Positions 6,491 to 19,193 of a stretch of 33,973 nt of DNA are shown here, one piece after another. The DNA is taken from contig JAAFIM010000036.1 of NCBI GenBank assembly GCA_013297745.1, positions 1-33,973 of the forward strand. The letters are read 5' to 3'. Numbering within the stretch: position 1 is the first letter of the stretch; the number at the start of each line of letters is the position of its first letter. The stretch is from Chitinophagales bacterium (GTDB lineage: Bacteria > Bacteroidota > Bacteroidia > Chitinophagales > Saprospiraceae). The notes under the pieces are model-generated. The model was not told where the DNA came from. It did not search any database and worked only from the letters and a program-made list of their open reading frames with translations. The position numbers and the translations under genes are program-made.

Positions 6491-7330
6491 ATGAAAGCTA
6501 AAAAATCTTACGGACAGCACTTTTTGAGAGAAGAACCTATAGCTCAACGCATAGCTGAAAGTTTACAACTGCTTGATACTTATCAAGATATATTAGAGAT
6601 AGGCCCTGGTATGGGTATGCTCACTAAGTATCTGCTTCGTTATCAACCCGCCCAAAAATTGACCGTTGTAGAAGCAGACCCTGATATGGTGGCGCATCTG
6701 AAAGCCAATTATAATGAACTTCCCCACGAGCAAATTATTCAGCAAGATTTTTTGAAAATGCCCATAAGTCAGCATTTTGCTGAACGCCAGTTTGGTTTGA
6801 TAGGCAATTTTCCTTACAATATATCCAGCCAGATTGTATTTAAAACTATAGAACACAGAACCCAAATTCCAGAAATGGTGGGTATGTTCCAGCGCGAAGT
6901 AGCCGAGCGTATAGCCGCTACGCCTGATTGTGGAGAGTACGGAATTTTGACCGTTTTGGCGCAGGCTTTTTATGAAGCCAAATTATTGTTTATCGTCAAA
7001 GCGGGTAGTTTTAACCCACCCCCAAAAGTACAAAGCGCGGTGATTAGATTGACCCGCAAAACTAATCAAGATTTGGGTTGTGACGAAAAGATTTTTAAAA
7101 TGGTGGTCAAACAAGCATTTGGACAACGCCGAAAAATGTTGAGAAATACCTTAGCTGGTTTGTTATCCAAAGAAATACTTTACTCAGATGATAATTTTAC
7201 AAAAAGAGCCGAAAATTTATCCGTAGCCGATTTTGTAACCCTAACCAACCAAATCAGCGAGTTTAGAAAAAACAGCAAAAATGACGAACCCATAGATGAA
7301 CCGACAACAAACGAGGGTGAAAATGATTAG
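6491..7330 (+). CDS. rsmA: 16S rRNA (adenine1518-N6/adenine1519-N6)-dimethyltransferase
   Basis: 279 residues, the usual length. RsmA (KsgA) puts two methyl groups on each of two adjacent adenosines in the 3' hairpin of 16S rRNA late in 30S assembly, using SAM. The family start KSYGQHFL is present (residues 5-12), followed by the SAM-binding motif EIGPGMG (36-42), the acidic residue of VVEADP (59-64), and the catalytic NFPYNIS (106-112), the NxxY motif of adenine-N6 methyltransferases. FGQRRKMLRNTL in the C-terminal part is the family's rRNA-contact signature. It is driven by the promoter at 6443-6474; its last 8 nt overlap the start of the dehydrogenase gene, so the two are probably co-transcribed and translationally coupled. 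Confidence 0.97.
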   Translation: MKAKKSYGQHFLREEPIAQRIAESLQLLDTYQDILEIGPGMGMLTKYLLRYQPAQKLTVVEADPDMVAHLKANYNELPHEQIIQQDFLKMPISQHFAERQFGLIGNFPYNISSQIVFKTIEHRTQIPEMVGMFQREVAERIAATPDCGEYGILTVLAQAFYEAKLLFIVKAGSFNPPPKVQSAVIRLTRKTNQDLGCDEKIFKMVVKQAFGQRRKMLRNTLAGLLSKEILYSDDNFTKRAENLSVADFVTLTNQISEFRKNSKNDEPIDEPTTNEGEND

Positions 7331-8264
7331 AAAAGTGCTAATTACAGACCACGCGCATATATTATTACAGCAAGGTTTGGAAAAAGCGGGTTATCTGTGC
7401 GATTATCAGCCAGAGATTAGCTACACCCAAACGTTGGAAATTATCCCCGAATATGAAGGTTTGGTTATCAACAGCAAAATTTTGGTGGATAAAAATTTCA
7501 TAGATAAAGCCCCCAAGCTACAATTTGTGGCGCGTTTGGGTTCGGGGTTGGAAATTATAGACTTAGAATATGCCAAAGAACGCCAACTAAAAGTTTTTAG
7601 CTCGCCAGAGGGCAATTGCGATGCTGTGGCCGAACACGCTTTGGGATTTTTGCTCGCTTTGGCTATCAATTTGCGCCAAGCCGATGCTGAAATGCGCCAA
7701 CAGGTTTGGAATAGAGAAACGCATAGGGGTTGGGAATTGGGGCAAAAAACTGTAGCCATTATCGGCTGCGGACACACGGGGGGAGCGTTTGCGCGCAAAT
7801 TGAAAGGGCTGGATATGCGCGTTTTGGGTTATGACAAGTATAAAAAAGATTATAATCGCAGTTTTCCCCACTTGATAGAAACCAATATGGAGCAGATTTG
7901 GGCTGAAGCGGATATCGTTAGTTTGCATTTGCCGCTAACTGCCGAAACTAAATATGCTTTTGATAATCAATGGTTTGCACAGTTTGAAAAAAATATAATT
8001 TTGCTCAATACAGCACGTGGGCAATTGATACGGAACGAAACTTTAATCACCCAATTGGATGCGGGCAAAATCCGCGCTGCTGGATTGGATGTGTTTGAAA
8101 ATGAAAAAACAAGCACTTACAGCCACCACGAACAAGCCCAATACCAAAATATAAGCCAACGGGCTAATGTATTGTCGACCCCTCATATAGCAGGTTGGAC
8201 ACAGGAATCAAAAATAAAGTTGGCTCAAATACTTTTGGATAAAATTTTGTCTTTTTTTTCTTAA
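7323..8264 (+). CDS. serA: D-2-hydroxyacid dehydrogenase, probably 3-phosphoglycerate dehydrogenase
   Basis: 313 residues from the ATG at 7323; an earlier in-frame start at 7296 lies inside rsmA and adds an unrelated tail. The Rossmann motif GCGHTGG (148-154) binds NAD; the catalytic trio is Arg in NTARG (R232), Glu in DVFENE (E259) and His in STPHIAGW (H288). No ACT domain follows, as in short Bacteroidota SerA-like proteins. The likely reaction is oxidation of 3-phosphoglycerate to 3-phosphohydroxypyruvate, the first step of serine synthesis; the second-step enzyme SerC is encoded at 27321-28382. Other 2-hydroxyacids remain possible substrates, because the family is broad. It overlaps rsmA by 8 nt. 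No clear terminator follows in the 166-bp gap to 8431. Confidence 0.85.
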   Translation: MIRKVLITDHAHILLQQGLEKAGYLCDYQPEISYTQTLEIIPEYEGLVINSKILVDKNFIDKAPKLQFVARLGSGLEIIDLEYAKERQLKVFSSPEGNCDAVAEHALGFLLALAINLRQADAEMRQQVWNRETHRGWELGQKTVAIIGCGHTGGAFARKLKGLDMRVLGYDKYKKDYNRSFPHLIETNMEQIWAEADIVSLHLPLTAETKYAFDNQWFAQFEKNIILLNTARGQLIRNETLITQLDAGKIRAAGLDVFENEKTSTYSHHEQAQYQNISQRANVLSTPHIAGWTQESKIKLAQILLDKILSFFS

Positions 8265-8430
8265 ATATGCTTGTAAATTCAAAAACTCGCCCTATTTTTC
8301 GCCCTTGTTTGTTAAAGTAAGGTTAAAATATAGCCGATTTTGTTAATAAATTTACATAAAAATATAGCTAACTTGCTGATATATAATCAATTGCGAAATT
8401 TATTTCTTAACCTAATTTTAATCTTCATTT

Positions 8431-8913
8431 ATGAAATACCTAATTTTATTGCTGCTTTTTAGCAAAACTTTTATCGCTTTTAGCCAAAATTATGGCACAC
8501 TCAAAGGCAGAGTTACCGACGAAAATATAAATAATGAACCTGTAGCTTTCGCGAATGTGGCGGTTTATAAACAACCAGCTGATAAAAATGCAAACTTGGC
8601 TCTGTTGGATATGTTTTATGGCACCAGTACGGACGAAAACGGCGATTATTACATTCCTAATCTGCCTACGGGGCTTTATCTGGTAGAAGTTACCTACATT
8701 GATTTTCCTGCGCCTTTGAAATTTAATAAGTTAAAAATTGAAACAGACAAAACTACAGTTTTGGATGCGAAATATCCGAAGATGGAAGAAGAGGATGGAA
8801 GAGATTACTTCTTGCCTCTACAGATAGACGTTCCTCCAATGATTGATGTTTCTAATACTTCCAACACCACAACCATAAAAGCGGACGATATTCGCCGAAT
8901 GGGGATTAGATAA
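8431..8913 (+). CDS. truncated receptor paralogue 1: secreted carboxypeptidase-regulatory-like domain
   Basis: 160 residues: signal peptide (MKYLILLLLFSKTFIAFSQ), then one carboxypeptidase regulatory-like beta-sandwich (GRVTDENINNEPVAFANVAVY ... TSTDENGDYYIPNLPTG) matching residues ~27-115 of the full-length receptor at 9970. After an acidic linker the tail reads SNTTTIKADDIRRMGIR, matching the very start of the receptor plug domain (SNTKTMTAEDISKQATRG), and then stops. So this is the N-terminus of a TonB-dependent receptor cut just inside the plug, with a normal stop and no remnant of a barrel. Copy 2 begins 20 nt later. Function is unknown; it could be a remnant, a secreted decoy or module, or a sequence donor for the receptor. 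Confidence 0.8.
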   Translation: MKYLILLLLFSKTFIAFSQNYGTLKGRVTDENINNEPVAFANVAVYKQPADKNANLALLDMFYGTSTDENGDYYIPNLPTGLYLVEVTYIDFPAPLKFNKLKIETDKTTVLDAKYPKMEEEDGRDYFLPLQIDVPPMIDVSNTSNTTTIKADDIRRMGIR

Positions 8914-8933
8914 TCATTTAAAATCGCCTAATT

Positions 8934-9371
8934 ATGAAATACCTAATTTTATTGCTGCTTTTTAGCAAAACCTTTATCGCTTTTAGCCAAAATTATGGCA
9001 CACTCAAAGGCAGAGTTACCGACGAAAATTATAATAATGAGCCTGTAGCTTTTGCGAATGTGGCGGTTTATAGAAAATACACTGGCACGAACCAAGAACT
9101 TGAACTTGAATTGATTAATGGCACTAGTACGGATGAGAATGGCGAGTATTACATTCCCAATATCTCCGCTGGCACTTATGCGATAGAAGTTACTCATACC
9201 GATTTGCCACGCGCAATAAGAATAAACGGGGTTCAAATTAAATCAAATGGTTTTGTTAATTTGGATATTAAGTACCCTATTATTGACCACTCAAAACCAC
9301 CAACAGCACCATACAAATGCCGTCTAACAGATAATGGTTTTTGGGTTGGCAGCAAAATAGCCCATCGTTAA
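8934..9371 (+). CDS. truncated receptor paralogue 2
   Basis: 145 residues. The signal peptide and first ~45 codons are nearly identical in DNA to copy 1 (only a handful of differences, mostly silent). The regulatory-like domain ends with GVQIKSNGFVNLDIKYP, closest to the same stretch of the full receptor (GVQIKSNGITPLDIKYP) and not to copy 1, so the gene is a mosaic. The C-terminal 25 residues (DHSKPPTAPYKCRLTDNG and onward) match neither, and no plug sequence remains. It follows copy 1 by 20 nt and precedes copy 3 by 27 nt, so the three are probably co-transcribed. Confidence 0.78.
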   Translation: MKYLILLLLFSKTFIAFSQNYGTLKGRVTDENYNNEPVAFANVAVYRKYTGTNQELELELINGTSTDENGEYYIPNISAGTYAIEVTHTDLPRAIRINGVQIKSNGFVNLDIKYPIIDHSKPPTAPYKCRLTDNGFWVGSKIAHR

Positions 9372-9398
9372 TACACCTTTTCAAAAACATAAACATAA

Positions 9399-9878
9399 AT
9401 GGTTATAATTCGTTACTTAATTTTTTTCAGCTTACTGTTGCTCGCTGGGCTGATACAGGCACAGTCAGGAGGCGCCCTCAAAGGCAAAATTACTGACGAA
9501 AATTATAATAATGAGCCTGTAGCTTTTGCGAATGTGGCGGTTTATAAGGAAACGGGGCAAGAGTGGGACGAACTTGTATATGGCGCTTCTGCTGATGTAG
9601 ATGGTAATTATTACCTTCCCAATATCCCAGCTGGAAGTTATATTGTGGAAATTACTTATATTGATTTTCCACGAGTAGTCAAAATACACAATCTGTTAAT
9701 AGTACCCAACAAAACGACCCAATTGGATTATAAATATCCTAAGTATGATGATTCTTGGGAAGAATTAAGACTTAACCCAATATGCGCCTACGCCTATCAT
9801 AGCTATCCAACTGCCAACAATACCAACGAACAAAAGCAAGGTGAATTTTCAGCATCAACAAAAATACTCCACCGTTAA
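9399..9878 (+). CDS. truncated receptor paralogue 3
   Basis: 159 residues. The signal peptide is of the receptor type (MVIIRYLIFFSLLLLAGLIQAQ), unlike copies 1 and 2, and about 25 nt before the ATG also resemble the receptor upstream sequence. Yet a 52-nt block (9495-9546) is identical to copy 2 (9021-9072), which again points to recombination among copies. The domain (GKITDENYNNEPVAFANV ... DGNYYLPNIPAGSY) is complete; the tail after YKYPKYDD is unique, Asn/Tyr-rich and ends without plug or barrel. 91 bp separate it from the receptor start. Confidence 0.78.
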   Translation: MVIIRYLIFFSLLLLAGLIQAQSGGALKGKITDENYNNEPVAFANVAVYKETGQEWDELVYGASADVDGNYYLPNIPAGSYIVEITYIDFPRVVKIHNLLIVPNKTTQLDYKYPKYDDSWEELRLNPICAYAYHSYPTANNTNEQKQGEFSASTKILHR

Positions 9879-9969
9879 CATACCTTTTCTTAACTTTTTT
9901 TTTAAACATAAAATTTTTATTCACACAAGCACAGATTTTTTTATAACTTTTTCAAAAACACAAACTTAA

Positions 9970-12900
9970 ATGGTTATGATTCGTTACTTAATTTTTTTTA
10001 GCTTACTGCTGCTTGCAGGGCTAATGCACGCACAGTCGGGAGGTACTCTGAAAGGGAAAGTTACCGACGAAAATATAAATAATGAGCCTGTAGCTTTTGC
10101 TAACGTGGCGATTTATAAAAATTCAGGGGTAGAAGGTGTAGCACCTGAATTGGTAAATGGTTCTAGCACAGATGAAAATGGTGAGTATTATATACCCAAT
10201 GTTCCTGCTGGTACTTATATGGTTGAGATTTCATATATTGATTTTCCTGCGAATTATCAAGTTACTGGAGTACAAATTAAATCAAATGGTATAACACCTT
10301 TAGATATTAAGTACCCAAAAGTACAAGATGAAGATAAAGGTAAAAAACTAGAAGTGATTATCGTGACTGCTGAGCGCGCTATTGTGAACGTTACTGAAAA
10401 TAGTAATACTAAAACAATGACAGCTGAGGACATATCTAAGCAAGCTACACGTGGGGTAAGTGACTTAAAAGCACAAAAAACGGGTGTAGTTCAAAAAGAT
10501 GCGGGTGAAGCCACTCGTGCTATGGGTAGCCGCGCTGGTTCTGATGATACTTATATTGATGGTGTGCGTTCTTTTGGTGGAGCTAGTGTACCAGAGACGG
10601 ATATCGAAGAGATACAAATCACCACTTCTGGTATTCCTGCTGAATATGGCGATGCTACTGGTGCGATTACCAACATCGTCACAAAAGGTCCTTCCAATAC
10701 ATTCACAGGTGGAGCGCAGTTGGAGACTTCTCAGTACTTAGATGCTTTTGGTAGCAATCGTTTGGACTTATCTTTTTCAGGTCCTATACTCAAAGCAGAT
10801 GTTTTGGATAATAAAGGGAATAAAATCTACGAAAAAGATAGCATTACCAAAAAACGTACTTTATTGGGTTTCCGTTTCTCTGCTACGGGTTTTACCGATT
10901 TGGACAATCGCGCTTCTGCTTTTCCTACTTTCTTGTTGAAAGACGAAGTTAGAGACCGCATTTCAGCTAATCCTTTAGTACAGAATCCAGCTGGCGCAGG
11001 ACGTATACAAGCGGCTAATTATTTGACTGCTGATGATTTTACGACCAGCAAAATTCGCCCTAATGTAAGAGAATCTTATGTTATTCTGAATGGTAAATTA
11101 GATTATAAACCAACTAATGATGTTTATGTTTCTGCTGCTGGCCAAGCACAAGTTCGTGTAGGAAATAGTGGAGGACGTGCCAATCAATTGTTGAATTATG
11201 ATTACAACAGCCAATTTACACAAAATAACGTGCGTGGTTTATTCCGCTTGCGTCATTCGGTAAGCTCTACCAAAGTAAAACAAAAAGGTGACGACGATAG
11301 CAGCGCTATTCAACCTTTGTTTCAGAATTTGGTTTATGAAATACAAGCAGACTATACTCAAGAATCAACTATCCAATCAGACCCTCGCTATGGCGATAAT
11401 TTCTTTGAATATGGATATGTAGGTAAAATTTTCCGCAATTACGTACCAGTAGCTGGTTTTGTAGATTCTGTGGCTATCCGCAACAGCAACGATAGTATTA
11501 TTGGTTATGATGTAAGATTGGGACACTCTGGTAACTTTATCTCTTTTGCTGGATACGAACCAGCGCGAGACATTAACCCAGTGCTTTCTGCTTACAACAA
11601 TTTGATAGATTTTAGCCGTATTTCTTCTATGGAAGAGATGGAAATCGTCAATGGTCGTTTTACAGGCAATCAAGATAATATATTCAATTTGTTTAGAAAC
11701 GCTGGTACAGTAGGCGAAAATGGTGCTACTTATTTTAAAGATTTTTCTCAACAAATTCGTGGTAGCGTAAAAGTAAATTTTGACTTAGTTACTAATAGAG
11801 GCAAGGGCAAAAATTCTTTCCGCCACGCTATACAAATGGGTGCAACTTACGAGCAACGTATAGAACGCGCTTATGCGATGTCTCCTTTTGAATTATGGAC
11901 TTTGGCTGACCAAACTGTCAATGACCACTTATCTAATTCGGCAGATAGAAGCCGTCCTACAGGCGAAACTTTTTTCGACCCATTCAGCCAACGCTATTAT
12001 GAGCGTTTTGAGACATTGATAAGAAACGACGCAGAGGGTATTCCAACCCCAATGTCTGCTTTTGGAGAGCGTTTGCGTACACAGTTGAATAAAACTAGCC
12101 GCGATTGGATAAATGTACACGAATTGACCCCTGACCAATTGAGCCTTTCTATGTTTGAACCTACTACTTTGATACAAGGTCGTCAAGCTGTATTGAACTA
12201 TCAAGGGTTTGATTATTTAGGCAATCCGCTAGGTACTAATGTTCAGTTTAACGATTTCTTTTTGGAACAAGTAGACGGACGTTATACTCGCCCTGTAGCT
12301 CCTTTCAAACCTATTTACATAGCTGGTTATATACAAGATAAATTTATTTATAAAGATATTATTGTACAAGCTGGTTTGCGTGTAGATAACTATGATGCCA
12401 ATACCAAAGTAATGAAAGACCCATTCTCTGTAACTGGTTATTATACGGCTTCAGAGTTTGAAAAAACAAATTCTAATTATAATGCACCACAAGACCCAGA
12501 TTATAGACGTCCAAGCACTATAGGTGATGATTTCGCTGTTTATGTCAACGAAAATAGCCAAGATGCAGTAGTGGTGGGCTATAGACAAGGCGAACAATGG
12601 TACAATGCTGCTGGTACGCCTGTCAATAATGCTGGTGAGTTAGGTTCTAATATAATCCCTGCTTTGCGCGGATTTAGCCAAGCTGAAATTGACCCACAAG
12701 GTTCTAAATACGACCCAGATTTGGCGTTTAGAGATTACAAACCTACCCCTGTGATTATGCCTCGTTTGTCTTTCTCTTTCCCTATTATACCAGAAAAAGC
12801 AAACTTCTATGCCAACTATGATGTTTTGGCTCAACGCCCCAACGGCAACAACGTAGCAACTGCTTTGACTTATTTCAATTTCCGCGAAAATGCTGCTAAT

Positions 12901-13902
12901 GGTTTCTTGCCTAATCCTGACCTTCAATCTCAACGCGTAGTAAATTATGAAGTTGGTTACCAACAAGCTATCAATCCATTTTCTCGTTTCAAATTGTCTT
13001 TGTTGTTCCGCGAAGACCGCAACCAAATCCAATTGAAACAGTACTTATTTGCTTATCCTATCAACTACACTACTTTCGGCAATGACGACTTTTCTACCAC
13101 CAAAGCTTTTATGTTTGAATATGAACTTCGTCCTAAAAAACGTGGAAGTTTGACCGAAAAAGCAAGCAATATGAAATTTATTCTAAACTACACCCTTCAG
13201 TTTGTAGAAGGTACTGGTTCTAGCCCTACAGCTACTGCTGCTATTGGTGCGCGTGATTTGAAATACGTGTTTCCATTGGATGTAGACCAACGCCATACTT
13301 TCTTCTTGAATATGGATTATCGCTACAAATCTGGTGCTGAATACAACGGGCCTAAAATTTCTTACAAAGGCAAAAAGAAATCAAAAGATGCTGAAAATGC
13401 TGACCAACCTGCTGAAAAAGTGGATAAAACTTTTGATATTTTTGCAAATATGGGTATAAATATATCTTGCACTGCGTTTTCTGGTTCTCCTTATACTCGC
13501 AAACTTGTGCCTGGTGGTATCGGAACTTCTTTTGGTTCTGCGATTACAGAGGGTTCTATTAGTGGTGCGCGTTTGCCTTGGAGCTATCGTTTTGATGTGC
13601 GTATTGATAGAGATATTACTTTTGGTGGTAAAGAAAAAGAGGGTAAAAAATCAAAAATTGTTCGTGCGAATGTATATGTGCGCATCCAAAACTTGTTGAA
13701 TACCCAAAACGTACTTAATGTATATCCTGCTACTGGTTCGCCTACTGATGATGGTTTCTTGACCAATCAAAACAGCCCTGGTTTGAATTTGCCTATACTT
13801 AACGGAGACACTTATCCTTTATTGTACGATTTGCGTATGCGCGAACCATTCAATATCTCTCGCCCACGCCGTATATTCTTGGGCGTAGTATTTGGTTTCT
13901 AA
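9970..13902 (+). CDS. TonB-dependent outer-membrane receptor with N-terminal carboxypeptidase-regulatory-like domain
   Basis: 1310 residues: signal peptide (1-21), carboxypeptidase regulatory-like domain (~27-115), a TonB-box-like EVIIVTAER (128-136), plug domain (~145-240, with AGSDDTYIDGVR, then EYGDATGAITNIVTKG), and a large 22-strand-type barrel that ends in Phe (RRIFLGVVFGF), the outer-membrane insertion signal. Such proteins import a ligand across the outer membrane with energy from TonB-ExbBD. No SusD-like lipoprotein follows, so it is not a standard glycan-uptake pair. Instead the next genes encode a T9SS-like cargo and a PorV/PorQ-family protein, suggesting a joint role in surface display or export. 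A terminator lies after the gene. Alternative start at 9976 is possible. Confidence 0.92.
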   Translation: MVMIRYLIFFSLLLLAGLMHAQSGGTLKGKVTDENINNEPVAFANVAIYKNSGVEGVAPELVNGSSTDENGEYYIPNVPAGTYMVEISYIDFPANYQVTGVQIKSNGITPLDIKYPKVQDEDKGKKLEVIIVTAERAIVNVTENSNTKTMTAEDISKQATRGVSDLKAQKTGVVQKDAGEATRAMGSRAGSDDTYIDGVRSFGGASVPETDIEEIQITTSGIPAEYGDATGAITNIVTKGPSNTFTGGAQLETSQYLDAFGSNRLDLSFSGPILKADVLDNKGNKIYEKDSITKKRTLLGFRFSATGFTDLDNRASAFPTFLLKDEVRDRISANPLVQNPAGAGRIQAANYLTADDFTTSKIRPNVRESYVILNGKLDYKPTNDVYVSAAGQAQVRVGNSGGRANQLLNYDYNSQFTQNNVRGLFRLRHSVSSTKVKQKGDDDSSAIQPLFQNLVYEIQADYTQESTIQSDPRYGDNFFEYGYVGKIFRNYVPVAGFVDSVAIRNSNDSIIGYDVRLGHSGNFISFAGYEPARDINPVLSAYNNLIDFSRISSMEEMEIVNGRFTGNQDNIFNLFRNAGTVGENGATYFKDFSQQIRGSVKVNFDLVTNRGKGKNSFRHAIQMGATYEQRIERAYAMSPFELWTLADQTVNDHLSNSADRSRPTGETFFDPFSQRYYERFETLIRNDAEGIPTPMSAFGERLRTQLNKTSRDWINVHELTPDQLSLSMFEPTTLIQGRQAVLNYQGFDYLGNPLGTNVQFNDFFLEQVDGRYTRPVAPFKPIYIAGYIQDKFIYKDIIVQAGLRVDNYDANTKVMKDPFSVTGYYTASEFEKTNSNYNAPQDPDYRRPSTIGDDFAVYVNENSQDAVVVGYRQGEQWYNAAGTPVNNAGELGSNIIPALRGFSQAEIDPQGSKYDPDLAFRDYKPTPVIMPRLSFSFPIIPEKANFYANYDVLAQRPNGNNVATALTYFNFRENAANGFLPNPDLQSQRVVNYEVGYQQAINPFSRFKLSLLFREDRNQIQLKQYLFAYPINYTTFGNDDFSTTKAFMFEYELRPKKRGSLTEKASNMKFILNYTLQFVEGTGSSPTATAAIGARDLKYVFPLDVDQRHTFFLNMDYRYKSGAEYNGPKISYKGKKKSKDAENADQPAEKVDKTFDIFANMGINISCTAFSGSPYTRKLVPGGIGTSFGSAITEGSISGARLPWSYRFDVRIDRDITFGGKEKEGKKSKIVRANVYVRIQNLLNTQNVLNVYPATGSPTDDGFLTNQNSPGLNLPILNGDTYPLLYDLRMREPFNISRPRRIFLGVVFGF

Positions 13903-13933
13903 AAATTTGAATTTTTAAAATCATCTTTGCTAT

Positions 13934-13962
13934 GGAGGCTGCTTTTTTTGTGGCCTCCTTTT
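13934..13962 (+). terminator. terminator between receptor and surface protein genes
   Basis: GGAGGC (13934-13939) pairs with GCCTCC (13953-13958), followed by TTTT. The loop contains a T-run. It lies inside the probable receptor-cargo-PorV operon, so it likely lowers downstream expression more than it separates unrelated units. Confidence 0.65.
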
Positions 13963-13990
13963 ATTTAATTCTTTTAAATATTATTTTGGT

Positions 13991-16900
13991 ATGAACCGAC
14001 TAAAACAATTAGCTTTTACGCTGTTTTCGTTGTGTATAGCTCCGCAATTATTACAAGCGCGCGAGTTTATCAGCAGCAATCATAATCCTCCTCCCCCTAA
14101 TAATTTTCCTAGAGCAGCCAACTGTTCCGAATCTCGTGCAGGTACAGAGTTATCAATCAACAATGTGCGAGCATTTTTGGGCGCAGGCGGTCGTGTATGG
14201 TATGACCTACAAAGGGGAAGTTATATAGTGCCCAATGTAGACCCAGCTTCTGGGCGTCCCCAAGTTTCTTCGCTTTATGCTGGCGGGATTTGGTTGGGTG
14301 CTTATGATGCTGTGGGCAATCTTATTCTTGCCGCACAAAAATTTAATCAAGGGGTAGATTATTGGTCAGGCCCGCTTGACCCGCTCACAGGCGTGGTAGA
14401 AAAATCCGTTTGCGAAGAATGGGACAGACACTTTCGGGTGTTGGGTGCTGATATAGATGCTTTGCGTGCGGATTATTTTGCGCCAGACCCAGCCACTGGA
14501 CAATCAGACAACCGTATAGATAGCCGCCCTTCAAGAGGAATTTTGGGTTGGCCAGCTAGGGGTAATCCATATTTCAGCGAGATTTATGGCTTTGATTTGC
14601 CAGACCAAGATTTAGCACCTTTTATAGAGCCTTTAGGACGCGAAGATGGCATTTATGACCCTTTGGATGGCGACCATCCTGTGATTGAAGTCGCAGGTTG
14701 TGGTGCGGACTATCTCAATCCTGTATATGCTGACGAAATGATTTGGTGGGTATTCAATGATAGAGGTAATGTGCATTCTGAAAGTAGTGGACAACCTATG
14801 TCTATGGAAATTCAAGCCTTGGCATTTGCTTATCGTACCACGGATGCTATCAACAATATGTCTTTTTATCGCTATAAATTATTGAATAGAAATACTCTAT
14901 CTCTAAGAAGTACTTATTTTGCGCTGTGGTCTGACCCAGATTTGGGTTGTTATTTGGATGACAAAATTGGTGTAGATACGGCCACTGGTTTGGGTTATGT
15001 CTATAATGGGGATGCTAATGACGATGCAAGCTGTGGTACAGCCTTGGGTTACGGTACTGTAGTTCCAGCTTTGGGGGTGGATTATTTTAGAGGACCTTTA
15101 GATTCAGCAGGCAACCAATTAGGACTTTCTTCTTTCCAGTATCACGTAGCTGGCGGCGGTCCTACAGGCGACCCTAATGCTGCACTTGGTTTTTATCGCT
15201 TGATGTCTGGTTTTTGGCCTGACGGCACACCCGTAACTTACGAAGTAGGAGGTGATGGTTATGTAGCTGGTGGTTCTGGTACGCCTACACCTTATGTTTT
15301 CCCCTCTTTCCCCAATGACCAAGGCGCTGGCGCGTGGTCTATGTGTACAGGCGGCAATACAGCTAGCGACTTCCGCTTTTTGCACGTATCAGGTCCATTT
15401 ACGTTATTGCCTGGTGCAACCAATGAGTTGATTTCAGGGGTGGTTTGGGTACCTGAAGTTCCAGATTATCCATGTCCAAGTTTGCGCGGCTTAGTTGAGG
15501 CTGACGTTTTGGCACAAAACTTATTTGACGACTGTTTCAAACTTACTGATGGTCCTGATGCGCCTTATATGGATGTAGTAGAGTTAGAAAATGAGTTGGT
15601 ATTGAATTTATCTTATTTGCCTGCTCAAAATAATTACCAGTTGAAATACGAAGAGCGCCCAGCTTCTTTGCGCGGTGAGTCTGATTCAACCTACAATTTT
15701 GAAGGCTATAAAATTTACCAAGTGGTTAGCCCTAATACTTCAGTTACTGAATTGGAAGACCCAGAAAAAGCTCGTTTGGTTTATCAAACAGACTTGCGCA
15801 ATGGTATAGATAAAGTGACCAATTGGTCTGTTTTCCCTGATGAAGATGTACGTGCTTTTGTTCCCAAAATCATGGTAGAGGGCGAAGACAAAGGTATTAA
15901 ACATACTTATGTGGTAAAAGAGGATAAATTTGCTGTTACCAACAATAAATTGGTAAATCATAAACCTTATTATTTTTGTGTGGTAGCTTATGGACACAAC
16001 GAATTTATACAATACGACCCAGCTACCAACACAGGACAAGCTAATCCTTATTTGCAAGGGCGTAAAAATTTCCGCATTTATACAGGTATCCCCCGCAATA
16101 ATTCACCCGAATATTTTGGTGCGGTTATCAATTCACAGTATGGCGATGCTCCTCAAATCAATCGTTTGGATGGAAAAGGTAATGGTGGGGCTTTATTCTT
16201 GAATGTAGCAGACCAGCCAACTTTTGAAGCTAATTTATTGTCTGGTGCCAACACAAGCAGCATTTTGTATGCTCAAGGGCAAGGTCCAGTAGATGTTAAA
16301 GTTGTTGACCCGTTGCGCGTACCCAAAGGTGTTTATAATTTATATATTGGTGACCAAACCTATCGCTGGACTAGAGATGCTAATACAGGCGTATATACAG
16401 CCAATGTGCCTACCAATGCCACAGTTTTACAAGATTCTTTGTATTGGGCTTTGAAAGGCGATAGCGACCCAACCAAAGTATGGTTCTCTTATCAGTCACT
16501 TGATATTAAATACGAGCATTATATTCCTGAATTAGGAATTTCAATAGCTGTAGAACGTATCCCTTTCCCTGGCACTAATGGGGTTAGCGGTTGGGTTGGT
16601 TCTTCGGTAGAATACAAAGATTCTGCTACTGCTGTACGCTGGTATGAGCCTGTTTTGGATGAGCCTTCTGGTATATTCAATATGCTAAAAACTAGCAACG
16701 CGCAAGATGATGCAGCCCGCGACCCCCAAGAAGAGTATTCTACTTCAGTTGGTGGTTTCTATCCTGTGCCTATTTGCGATTGTCGTTATACAGGAGCCGA
16801 ATTTTATTTTACTCCTAGCCAGGTAACTGGTGGCAATCAATACTGCGATTTGTTGCGAACTACCAATCAAGCGCATATCAATTCTTTGCTCAACAGACAA

Positions 16901-18037
16901 CGCAACGTTAACGTGGTGATTACCCCTGACCAAAGCAAATGGAGCCGTTGTATCGTGGTAGAAACAGGAAACAAATTCCATCAAAACGGACTTGGTTTTG
17001 GCACACTTCCTAGTGGCAAAGACCAATTGGGTTGGAAAAACAATCAACCTTCGATAGGTAAAGATGGTAATCCTGACGGTACAGGCAATGGTATGTCTTG
17101 GTTCCCCGGTTTTGTATATGATGTAGAAACAGGCGAGCGTTTGAATATATTCTTTGGTGAAAATTCTTTGTTGAATGGTGGTTTCTTTGATGAAAATCAA
17201 TACCCCAAAGCTGCCACAGGCAATGATATGATTTATAATCCTACAGATTTGCGCCAAGCAGGTTTTGGTATAGATAATCCTACAACTTATTTATCTTTAG
17301 TATTGGGTGGTCAGCACATGATTTATGTGACCAACTCTGTATATGATGAGTGCCAATCTTTGGTTACTAACTATTATAATCCCCCTCCTGTTGCTGCTTT
17401 TACCCCTCAATATAAATTGTTGAGAGATAGAGAATTGATTTGGGCTTCATTGGGTTATATGAAAGAGGGAACTTCTATGCAAGGTGCAAAACAAAATATA
17501 CCACCTTCTGAAGTGACCTTCAAATTGCGTGTTTCTACCCCGTACCAAATTGCGAGAGCTACCAACCAAAACCAAGGCTTCCCGCTATATAGTTTTGATT
17601 TGGGCAAATTATCACCTTCCAAAGAGGAAAAAAATACAGCTCAAACTGCTTTGGATTTGATAAATATAGTACCTAATCCATACTATGCTTACTCTGATTA
17701 CGAAGTTACAGAAATTGATAACGTGATTAAAGTGGTTAACTTACCTCCCAAATGTGTAGTTCGTATCTATTCTATAGATGGTCGTTTTGTACGCGAGTTT
17801 AACGTTTCACAAGATTATAATGCTACTAGTTTGAATGGTATTATCAAATTGGGTTCTTTTGGTAGTGGTGATATAGAAAATCAAATTTCTACCTCAGTCA
17901 ATTGGGATTTGAAAAATATGGCTGGTGTGCCTGTATCTAGTGGAGTTTATCTTGTGCACGTAGTTGTGCCAGAAGTAGGCGAGCGCGTATTAAAAAGTTT
18001 TATCATCAATAGAGCTTTTGACGCACAAAAACTATAA
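13991..18037 (+). CDS. large secreted surface protein with T9SS-like C-terminal domain
   Basis: 1348 residues with a signal peptide (MNRLKQLAFTLFSLCIAPQLLQA). The body is beta-rich, with many Gly/Asp/Asn/Tyr turns and scattered cysteines, and no catalytic signature I can name. Around residues 570-690 there is a fibronectin/FlgD-like section (NFEGYKIYQVVSP ... NHKPYYFCVVAYGHNEF). The last ~120 residues contain IVPNPYYAYSDYEV, CVVRIYSIDGRFVREF, WDLKNMAGVPVSSGVYLVHV and end LKSFIINRAFDAQKL: the pattern of type A T9SS sorting domains/FlgD-like Ig folds of Bacteroidota. It would cross the outer membrane through T9SS and stay at, or leave, the surface. It lies between the receptor and the PorV-like gene, each boundary marked by a terminator. 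Confidence 0.82.
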   Translation: MNRLKQLAFTLFSLCIAPQLLQAREFISSNHNPPPPNNFPRAANCSESRAGTELSINNVRAFLGAGGRVWYDLQRGSYIVPNVDPASGRPQVSSLYAGGIWLGAYDAVGNLILAAQKFNQGVDYWSGPLDPLTGVVEKSVCEEWDRHFRVLGADIDALRADYFAPDPATGQSDNRIDSRPSRGILGWPARGNPYFSEIYGFDLPDQDLAPFIEPLGREDGIYDPLDGDHPVIEVAGCGADYLNPVYADEMIWWVFNDRGNVHSESSGQPMSMEIQALAFAYRTTDAINNMSFYRYKLLNRNTLSLRSTYFALWSDPDLGCYLDDKIGVDTATGLGYVYNGDANDDASCGTALGYGTVVPALGVDYFRGPLDSAGNQLGLSSFQYHVAGGGPTGDPNAALGFYRLMSGFWPDGTPVTYEVGGDGYVAGGSGTPTPYVFPSFPNDQGAGAWSMCTGGNTASDFRFLHVSGPFTLLPGATNELISGVVWVPEVPDYPCPSLRGLVEADVLAQNLFDDCFKLTDGPDAPYMDVVELENELVLNLSYLPAQNNYQLKYEERPASLRGESDSTYNFEGYKIYQVVSPNTSVTELEDPEKARLVYQTDLRNGIDKVTNWSVFPDEDVRAFVPKIMVEGEDKGIKHTYVVKEDKFAVTNNKLVNHKPYYFCVVAYGHNEFIQYDPATNTGQANPYLQGRKNFRIYTGIPRNNSPEYFGAVINSQYGDAPQINRLDGKGNGGALFLNVADQPTFEANLLSGANTSSILYAQGQGPVDVKVVDPLRVPKGVYNLYIGDQTYRWTRDANTGVYTANVPTNATVLQDSLYWALKGDSDPTKVWFSYQSLDIKYEHYIPELGISIAVERIPFPGTNGVSGWVGSSVEYKDSATAVRWYEPVLDEPSGIFNMLKTSNAQDDAARDPQEEYSTSVGGFYPVPICDCRYTGAEFYFTPSQVTGGNQYCDLLRTTNQAHINSLLNRQRNVNVVITPDQSKWSRCIVVETGNKFHQNGLGFGTLPSGKDQLGWKNNQPSIGKDGNPDGTGNGMSWFPGFVYDVETGERLNIFFGENSLLNGGFFDENQYPKAATGNDMIYNPTDLRQAGFGIDNPTTYLSLVLGGQHMIYVTNSVYDECQSLVTNYYNPPPVAAFTPQYKLLRDRELIWASLGYMKEGTSMQGAKQNIPPSEVTFKLRVSTPYQIARATNQNQGFPLYSFDLGKLSPSKEEKNTAQTALDLINIVPNPYYAYSDYEVTEIDNVIKVVNLPPKCVVRIYSIDGRFVREFNVSQDYNATSLNGIIKLGSFGSGDIENQISTSVNWDLKNMAGVPVSSGVYLVHVVVPEVGERVLKSFIINRAFDAQKL

Positions 18038-18057
18038 TTTATCTTAACCAACGATTG

Positions 18058-18089
18058 GTAGCTCACAGTCATCCTGTGGGCTACTTTTT
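18058..18089 (+). terminator. terminator between surface protein and PorV-like genes
   Basis: GTAGCTCACAG (18058-18068) pairs with CTGTGGGCTAC (18074-18084) over 11 bp with one wobble, loop TCATC, followed by five T. The next ATG is only 19 nt on, so the PorV-like gene depends on read-through or on a promoter hidden in the cargo gene. Confidence 0.75.
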
Positions 18090-18107
18090 AAACTTTATGC
18101 GATTTTT

Positions 18108-19193
18108 ATGATTAAAAATTATTCACTAATAGCCGCTTGCTTGTTGGGTATGTTTTGCAGCCCCTTGGCTTATGCTGGTAATCCTGACCGACAAGGTGAA
18201 GGTGCAGCTTTCGAACTTTTGCTTAATCCTTGGGCGCGTAGCGTTGGATTGAACGGATTGATTACAGCCCGTACAACTGGGGTAGAAGCCTTATATTTTA
18301 ATCCTTCTGGTTTGGCTCGTACTCGTACAAAGACTGAAATTATGGCTAGCCACTCACTTTATTTGGTAGGCACTGATATGTCGATAAGTGCAGCTGGTAT
18401 GGCGCAACGTGTTAGTGAAAATGGCACTATAGGGATTTCTTTGATGTCTGTTGGTTTTGGTGATATTCCTTTGACTACCACCAACCAGCCTGAAGGTATT
18501 ACCACTTTCCGCCCTCGTTTTTTTAATATGGGGATTTCTTATGGGCATATATTCCGCGACGCAGCCACCAAAAGAGAAAAAGTAGCTGTAGGTTTTACCA
18601 CAAGGGTAGTTTCTGAATCTATTGCCAATGCTTCTGCTTCTGCTGTAGCTTTTGATGCTGGGGTGCAGTACTATGCTGGTCAAAACAATCAGGTGAAATT
18701 TGGTATAGCCTTGCGCAATATCGGTTCCAAAATGCGTTACAAAGGCGAAGGGCTTTCTTATGTGGGTGTAGCCCCCAACCGTACCACGCAAGCGACTGTC
18801 CAACAACGTACCACTTCTGCTGATTTGCCCGCTTTATTGCACTTGGGTATCTCTTATGATTTTTTGATTGGAAAAGACTCTCTTGGCAATTCCGCTCAAC
18901 GCTTGACTGTAGTGGGCAATTTTACCGCCAACTCTTATTCTCGTGACCAAATGGGTATAGGTGCTGAATATGCGTTCAAAGAGATGTTTATGGTGCGTGC
19001 TGGTTACAAATACGAATCCAAAATGTATGACAATACCGTCAATGGCACAGTATCTACTGGGCTTACTATGGGTGCATCAGTAGAAACACCGATAGCCAAA
19101 GGCAGCCAACGCCGTATAGCTTTTGATTATGCTTTTGAATATACTCGTATTTTTAAAGGTACTCACTCTTTGGGGCTTAAATTTAACCTCTAA
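18108..19193 (+). CDS. PorV/PorQ-family outer-membrane protein
   Basis: 361 residues: signal peptide (MIKNYSLIAACLLGMFCSPLAYA), then the family start GAAFELLLNPWARSVGLNG and GVEALYFNPSGLAR, which mark the PorV/PorQ (UPF0164) group of FadL-like 14-strand barrels, ending FKGTHSLGLKFNL. PorV is the T9SS subunit that takes cargo from the SprA translocon to the attachment complex; PorQ tethers PorZ. Family members beside a single large cargo gene are common in Bacteroidota and may be dedicated to that cargo. I cannot tell PorV from a dedicated paralogue, so no symbol is given. A strong bidirectional terminator follows. Confidence 0.88.
   Translation: MIKNYSLIAACLLGMFCSPLAYAGNPDRQGEGAAFELLLNPWARSVGLNGLITARTTGVEALYFNPSGLARTRTKTEIMASHSLYLVGTDMSISAAGMAQRVSENGTIGISLMSVGFGDIPLTTTNQPEGITTFRPRFFNMGISYGHIFRDAATKREKVAVGFTTRVVSESIANASASAVAFDAGVQYYAGQNNQVKFGIALRNIGSKMRYKGEGLSYVGVAPNRTTQATVQQRTTSADLPALLHLGISYDFLIGKDSLGNSAQRLTVVGNFTANSYSRDQMGIGAEYAFKEMFMVRAGYKYESKMYDNTVNGTVSTGLTMGASVETPIAKGSQRRIAFDYAFEYTRIFKGTHSLGLKFNL

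Follow-up and report, generated by a model that had tools for sequence, protein, structure and literature searches.

In the SusC-type transporter Bt1763, the N-terminal extension (NTE) precedes the TonB box and has an Ig-like seven-stranded fold; a deletion mutant without it, despite 25–50% expression, showed no detectable growth on levan after 24 h (PMC7782687). A possible role of the NTE in choosing among TonB homologues was suggested by the authors, and its role is stated as unknown (PMC7782687). Oar-like architecture dominates the TonB-dependent transporters of Bacteroidetes, where NTE domains are widespread, and the NTE of M. xanthus Oar was dispensable for PopC secretion (PMC6434023). 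The window receptor described below resembles Oar in its CarboxypepD_reg NTE, plug and barrel; unlike the window, M. xanthus Oar is accompanied by no described stand-alone NTE genes in the available part of that source (PMC6434023). No description of stand-alone NTE proteins was found in the literature searched.

The window, meaning the whole 33,973-nt stretch of DNA that was analysed, is the entire contig C85 of a 154-contig draft genome (G000). It contains three short open reading frames and a full TonB-dependent receptor on the same strand (Table 1), with gaps of 20, 27 and 91 bp after the first, second and third frame. NTE is used here for the CarboxypepD_reg extension; copies 1–3 are referred to as minis and copy 4 is the receptor. 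Minis and receptor are like SusC-type transporters (Bt1763; PF13715/PF13620) in their overlapping domain families and in the position of the NTE before the TonB box, but the Bt1763 NTE is described as part of the transporter, whereas the window NTE occurs also as separate, putatively secreted proteins. The array was read as a set of genuine small genes for free-standing NTE domains, with putative expression and a trans-acting mechanism proposed from sequence; this reading is given about an even chance. The tandem array of mini-genes in the window is real, is apparently confined to its lineage and has undergone gene conversion internally.

Table 1. Features of the mini-gene array and its flanks (positions in the window)
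Feature	Position	Strand	Description
2-Hydroxyacid dehydrogenase, flanking	7296..8264	+	
Near-identical tract	8429..8526	+	97/98 nt common with 8932..9029 (mini 2); identical runs of 40 + 57 nt
Putative NTE mini-gene 1 (160 aa)	8431..8913	+	Signal peptide and CarboxypepD_reg NTE, then a linker in which no TonB box is recognisable and the first plug segment before the stop
Putative NTE mini-gene 2 (145 aa)	8934..9371	+	Signal peptide and NTE; tail short and unrelated, containing one Cys
Identical tract (mini 2)	9021..9072	+	52 nt identical to 9495..9546 (mini 3)
Putative NTE mini-gene 3 (159 aa)	9399..9878	+	Signal peptide and NTE; tail unrelated, containing one Cys
Full TonB-dependent receptor (1310 aa)	9970..13902	+	Same NTE as minis, TonB-box-like EVIIVTA (by eye), plug, barrel
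Terminator-like hairpin (9 pairs), after receptor	13934..13958	+	Terminator scan
1348-aa secreted protein, downstream of receptor	13991..18037	+	C-terminal weak match to T9SS PorZ, 22.1 bits vs cut-off 260
PorV/PorQ family outer-membrane protein	18108..19193	+	NF033709, 153.7 bits, cut-off 90

PF13620 (CarboxypepD_reg) matched minis 1–3 with 45.7, 45.5 and 39.5 bits and the receptor with 45.5 bits (Pfam cut-off 32.3). Signal-peptide-like starts were found in all four copies, with Gln at the expected signal-peptidase site in 4/4 (by eye), where the Bacteroidetes Q-rule predicts it (PMC5837995). The original prediction, three stand-alone copies of the receptor N-terminus each with its own signal peptide and NTE, was borne out by these frames and matches. 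No Plug or barrel match was obtained for copies 1–3 with Pfam at E 0.1, and with plug and barrel not present the short proteins fall outside the definition of a TonB-dependent transporter. The Plug match of the receptor itself lies slightly below the Pfam cut-off (22.6 vs 23.9) and begins at residue 145; copy 1 aligns to receptor residues 4–161 and so ends 17 residues into the plug, as had been proposed. Between NTE and plug the receptor has the stretch LEVIIVTA (compared by eye with DEVVVTG of Bt1763), and no TonB-box-like stretch was seen in copies 1–3. The plug-start segment is not present in copies 2 and 3, whose tails align poorly; copy 1 has no Cys after the NTE. The first strand region is strongly conserved (21–26 of 27 residues identical among the four copies), and variation is found in the tails and in one NTE loop (KQPADKNANLALLDMFY and equivalents; 2–6 identical residues of 12–16 per pair). 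An AlphaFold model of copy 1 had a mean pLDDT of 70, with NTE blocks at 74–90 except for one at 58 and a tail below 50, and a Foldseek search with it gave mixed hits that include transthyretin and CnaB-like folds (TMq 0.33–0.50 in the best 50 rows), which suggests with moderate confidence that copy 1 is a beta-sandwich NTE with a disordered tail.

The mosaic structure of the copies was confirmed in each of its predicted parts: the signal peptides pair 1 with 2 (62/63 nt) and 3 with 4 (55/63 nt), the 52-nt block common to copies 2 and 3 is exactly identical, and copies 2 and 4 have a common GVQIKSNG...LDIKYP end with identical runs of 18 and 14 nt. In a codon alignment of the four NTEs, 65 two-against-two sites were scored for pairing; 43 supported 12|34, 12 supported 13|24 and 10 supported 14|23, arranged in blocks. 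All 36 sites in columns 12–89 were 12|34, one codon (columns 106–108) was 14|23, ten sites in columns 158–268 had mixed pairings, and columns 288–306 (6 sites, 14|23) were followed by columns 307–354 (10 sites, 13|24). Neighbouring sites agreed 54 times against 31.2 expected (permutation, P = 5e-5), and 19 times against 9.3 when the signal peptide was removed (P = 3e-4). Where amino acids are identical, codon identity was likewise uneven, at 41/44 proximally vs 15/30 distally for copies 1 and 2 (P = 4e-5), and at 21/22 within the block vs 20/32 elsewhere for copies 2 and 3 (P = 0.008). The longest identical runs between short copies were 40 + 57 nt (copies 1 and 2) and 52 nt (copies 2 and 3), and those with the receptor were 27 nt for copy 1 and 23 nt each for copies 2 and 3; in this search, runs at identical coordinates were ignored because the query ranges overlapped. 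For reference, the longest aligned run among the receptors of 16 genomes (120 pairs) was 20 nt, and in mini–receptor pairs outside the window it was at most 18 nt. Since the long runs are short-to-short and those with the receptor are short, the minis have exchanged sequence recently, and any exchange with the receptor would be older. The suggestion of gene conversion is supported for the mosaic exchange, its blocks exceeding the permutation expectation, but as regards recent events only among the short copies and not into the receptor. Across signal peptide and NTE, 31–38% of bases differ between the copies and the receptor (62–69% nucleotide identity), so the array is not a simple assembly artefact.

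Neisseria pilS is a silent-cassette system of antigenic variation, and the window array is like such systems in its linked partial copies and mosaic exchange. An earlier suggestion was that the copies are silent cassettes, which would donate sequence to the receptor by recombination and vary an exposed N-terminal domain. The receptor does take part in the mosaic through its shorter tracts with all three copies, and all three site pairings are found. Against this, the recent long tracts run from short copy to short copy only, with the receptor reaching no further than 27 nt; every copy is a complete gene, with a start, a signal peptide and a stop of its own; pN is below pS (see below); and the minis of eight of 14 other genomes are found close to purH, on a different contig from the receptor. 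Lying ahead of the TonB box and plug, the NTE should face the periplasm, which makes cassettes for surface variation unlikely. Taken with the tract lengths, we regard donation into the receptor as highly improbable.

The integrity of the frames bears on a second suggestion, that the copies are remnants, that is, partial 5' duplications, or full receptors that lost plug and barrel, in neutral decay and occasionally homogenised by conversion. For the distal NTE, pN was 0.22–0.34 and pS 0.51–0.79 in six pairs, three of them without the receptor; for the tails pN was 0.52–0.71. When neutral evolution was simulated from the receptor segment, an open frame was kept in 1.5–3.4% of runs per copy without indels and in 0–0.25% with indels, values that overstate the case because all divergence is assigned to the mini side. 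The frames are open with pN below pS, so they look neither broken nor neutral, although earlier selection may contribute: selection after truncation is inseparable from selection before it because no comparison genome has the same array, and part of the divergence may predate truncation. Decay after duplication would agree with the poor alignment of the tails of copies 2 and 3 and with the tandem layout, whose small gaps fit repeated local duplication; three open frames retained at this distance from the receptor, pN below pS, and the recurrence of the copy 1 end point in minis of nine other genomes speak against it. Debris is made unlikely by the open frames, by pN below pS and by comparable mini-genes in other genomes of the family, many of which stop at the same point, and the upkeep of the minis as proteins appears, on these sequence comparisons, fairly well supported.

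The distribution of minis was examined in related genomes. With a profile of the four NTEs, a match was obtained in 340 of 398 family genomes (11 candidates scored per genome). Among the matches listed, G000 was the only genome with four very strong matches (E < 1e-59), the next best, at 1e-19, being NTEs of long receptor frames, and no genome of the same genus was present. Loci were then compared by tblastn with the four NTEs in 27 cases (21 genomes; five of the loci are extended versions of another one or of its contig, L046 is without a receptor, and most extend no more than 1.5 kb upstream). The receptor start was the only hit in 23 loci, and L015, L016, L017 and L046 gave no hit. In the relatives the receptor adjoins a 2-hydroxyacid dehydrogenase and/or a large secreted protein (assigned by likeness), and in loci such as L002, L009 and L012 it follows the dehydrogenase (by likeness), without minis. 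As tblastn in relatives' loci hit the receptor start only, the extra copies before the receptor appear to belong to the window lineage. Further copies of the module were sought in the window genome and none was found near; the 15 other NTE matches there lie in open frames of 711–974 aa.

Stand-alone NTE frames do occur elsewhere. In a second profile search (130 genomes), complete minis were found in at least 11 genomes, G000 included, and in a search of the whole order (148 genomes) at least three short frames of 189–253 aa were found outside the family; the numbers of minis are minimum values, because not all candidates of a genome were scored, and leave out other short frames, for example in G007, G033, G034, G038, G044, G076, G422, G444 and G472. 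The set studied consisted of 20 minis from 15 genomes, three from the window and 17 from 14 other genomes. Not counted as minis were contig-edge fragments (G110, G115, G120, G132, G153 and, twice, G284), longer NTE proteins of G147 (261 and 276 aa), G016 (311 aa) and G238 (contig C44, ~257 aa, with a masked stretch), and a third, divergent 166-aa protein of G144; Y_G144 was left out of the alignment because its stretch misses the NTE. A mini adjoins purH or lies within ~3 kb of it in the eight genomes mentioned above, Pfam-confirmed in seven. In genus g87 this holds for 3/3 genomes: G086 and G238 have one mini each, the purH neighbourhood of the latter being assigned by likeness to its sister locus, and G178 has a tandem of three. 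The three G178 mini-genes (L087, 781–2266, minus strand), set against one each in the two sister genomes, show that copy number has changed while the locus stayed the same. The purH query found no match in the window genome, in a search run without a control. The receptor-like mini-genes of the relatives suggest real small envelope proteins rather than debris, and free NTE proteins would be a recurring class, of which the window array is a local form.

The minis of different genomes have several tail features in common. Ten of the 17 minis of other genomes (nine genomes), together with copy 1, stop 1–3 residues after the same 24-residue plug-start segment; m_G016 and m_G196 run 19 and 37 residues past it, and the remaining minis lack or alter it. 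Where the receptors have their TonB-box-like stretch, most minis have other residues (by eye); m_G196 retains such a stretch (DVVII). A Cys within the first 45 residues after the NTE is present in 17/20 minis (14/15 genomes) and in 0/16 receptors (Fisher P = 1.3e-7, ignoring relatedness). Leu-23 is absent in 11/11 shared-end minis and present in 15/16 receptors, the exception being the window's own receptor, and position 15 is aromatic in 8/11 shared-end minis, copy 1 not among them, vs 0/16 receptors; both of these comparisons are descriptive only, the end point having served to select the set. No single family of minis is marked out by the 24-residue tail, identity being 30.4% between minis and 42.4% between a mini and its own receptor.

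The same own-genome likeness was found in the NTE. Among 16 receptors the own receptor was closest for 18/20 minis (exceptions m_G144a, rank 2, and m_G147, rank 10), mean identity to it being 61.6% vs 44.6% under random assignment (P = 1e-5, 15 genomes). By tblastn against receptor loci of 65 genomes it was best for 19/20, with m_G147 at rank 40/65; the bit score of m_G086 ties with G001, identity breaking the tie, and the lead of m_G144a is about one bit. The single purH-linked minis of g87 have 54% of NTE residues in common with each other vs 63% and 67% with their own receptors. In a tree of 40 NTEs, starred own-genome clades were obtained for seven genomes (G000, G015, G209, G123, G082, G003 and G016); against the pattern, m_G144b fell among the G178 minis and m_G147 near G016; for G196, G238 and G064 the tree gave no resolved placement, and two rows had long branches. 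Common descent of all minis was rejected for the NTE (minis as one clade, p-AU 1.8e-6) and was not supported by the tail. Recent gene conversion as a general cause of the likeness outside the window array was rejected as well, because silent sites are saturated in mini–receptor pairs there (pS 0.62–0.85, pN 0.12–0.45).

Repeated birth from the local receptor and long co-evolution both fit the own-receptor likeness. Under repeated birth without coupling, minis would bud off the local receptor in each lineage and gain an envelope role of their own, the likeness reflecting ancestry only. That the minis are not one clade, that own pairs are silent-site saturated yet alike in protein, and that the tail too is closest to the own receptor would be expected from it; however, minis of different genera repeatedly show the shared end point, the gain of Cys, the loss of Leu-23 and a place near purH, which suggests a shared function or one origin, and birth without coupling was judged unlikely.

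For the free-standing NTE proteins, action in trans as partner or competitor would be the likeliest role, and of the earlier suggestions decoys, free domains acting in trans, come closest to it, although most minis are without a TonB box (by eye). The loss of growth on deleting the Bt1763 NTE speaks for this reading, and the dispensability of the Oar NTE for PopC secretion speaks against it. Export would take the minis to the periplasm, into which the receptor's own NTE would hang; there, secreted NTEs that lack TonB box and barrel would be expected to share any surface used by the receptor NTE. Each mini may then occupy the site used by the receptor NTE, either on a shared partner or on the NTE itself, and could tune receptor assembly or TonB coupling from outside, as competitor or docking subunit, a proposal based on the missing TonB box of most minis (by eye) and the missing barrel of all. 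In the window, the tandem position before the receptor would allow gene conversion to shuffle and partly homogenise the minis while the NTE loop and the tails diverge. A broader proposal, put forward tentatively and considered somewhat improbable as a whole, is that free NTE mini-proteins of the Saprospiraceae-type family form a trans-acting class matched genome by genome to one conserved receptor; the NTE would serve as a within-cell matching tag, which in some genomes YfbK/vWA proteins also carry, and TonB-box-less minis with linker cysteines would bind the same partner and regulate or scaffold the receptor. If true, the matching-tag reading gives the NTE an assayable function. Natural free NTEs that resemble one own receptor, mostly without a TonB box, are tools for asking what the NTE binds, and the tandem array displays gene conversion acting on small envelope genes.

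Transcription signals were scanned in the region of the array. No plus-strand terminator-like site was found between the minis or before the receptor, which, with the hairpin after the receptor, fits co-transcription of minis and receptor, the number of sites on both strands being at chance level (four found vs 4.7 expected; weak). Sigma-70-like promoters were not in excess (12 vs 18.8 expected) in a scan that does not cover Bacteroidetes-type promoters. The receptor, the 1348-aa protein with its PorZ-like end and the PorV/PorQ-family protein stand in a row (9970–19193), and a similar pair of receptor and secreted protein adjoins in many relative loci (by eye), which suggests that this receptor may be linked to type IX secretion.

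Receptor parts were also observed in other proteins. A candidate receptor paralogue on contig C95 of the window genome was rejected, the hit being a plug-like insert in an alpha-2-macroglobulin-type protein (A2M + TED; L044, 6563–10243, minus strand). The insert is 70% identical to receptor residues 121–217, the plug start, and 43% identical to the best of four compared relative receptors; the receptor's plug thus seems to have been copied within the window genome too. YfbK/vWA proteins with an N-terminal CarboxypepD_reg domain were found in L160 (5941–7932), L156 (4042–6111) and L084 (5211–7196). The NTE of the G016 protein is identical to that of its own receptor at 77/84 residues (pS 0.27, longest run 37 nt), which suggests recent exchange, and that of the G064 protein is not similar to the receptor NTE (22/80); a further run longer than the reference, of 24 nt, was found between two G178 minis. 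In L158 (5756–7515), the two longer NTE proteins of G147 lie beside the mini and carry a plug fragment and a possible T9SS-like tail (by eye); the NTE of the second is closely like that of the G147 receptor, and that of the adjoining mini is not.

Among known small-protein models, TIGR04134 (radical SAM-associated putative lipoprotein, 150 positions) was weakly matched by mini 2 over the NTE, below the cut-off (23.4 vs 39.8 bits); minis 1 and 3 had no match, nor had 10 minis of other genomes at E 0.1. The G105 mini (L155, 5174–5659) has a lipobox-like signal, FFTNC (by eye), which would make at least one of the minis a candidate lipoprotein.
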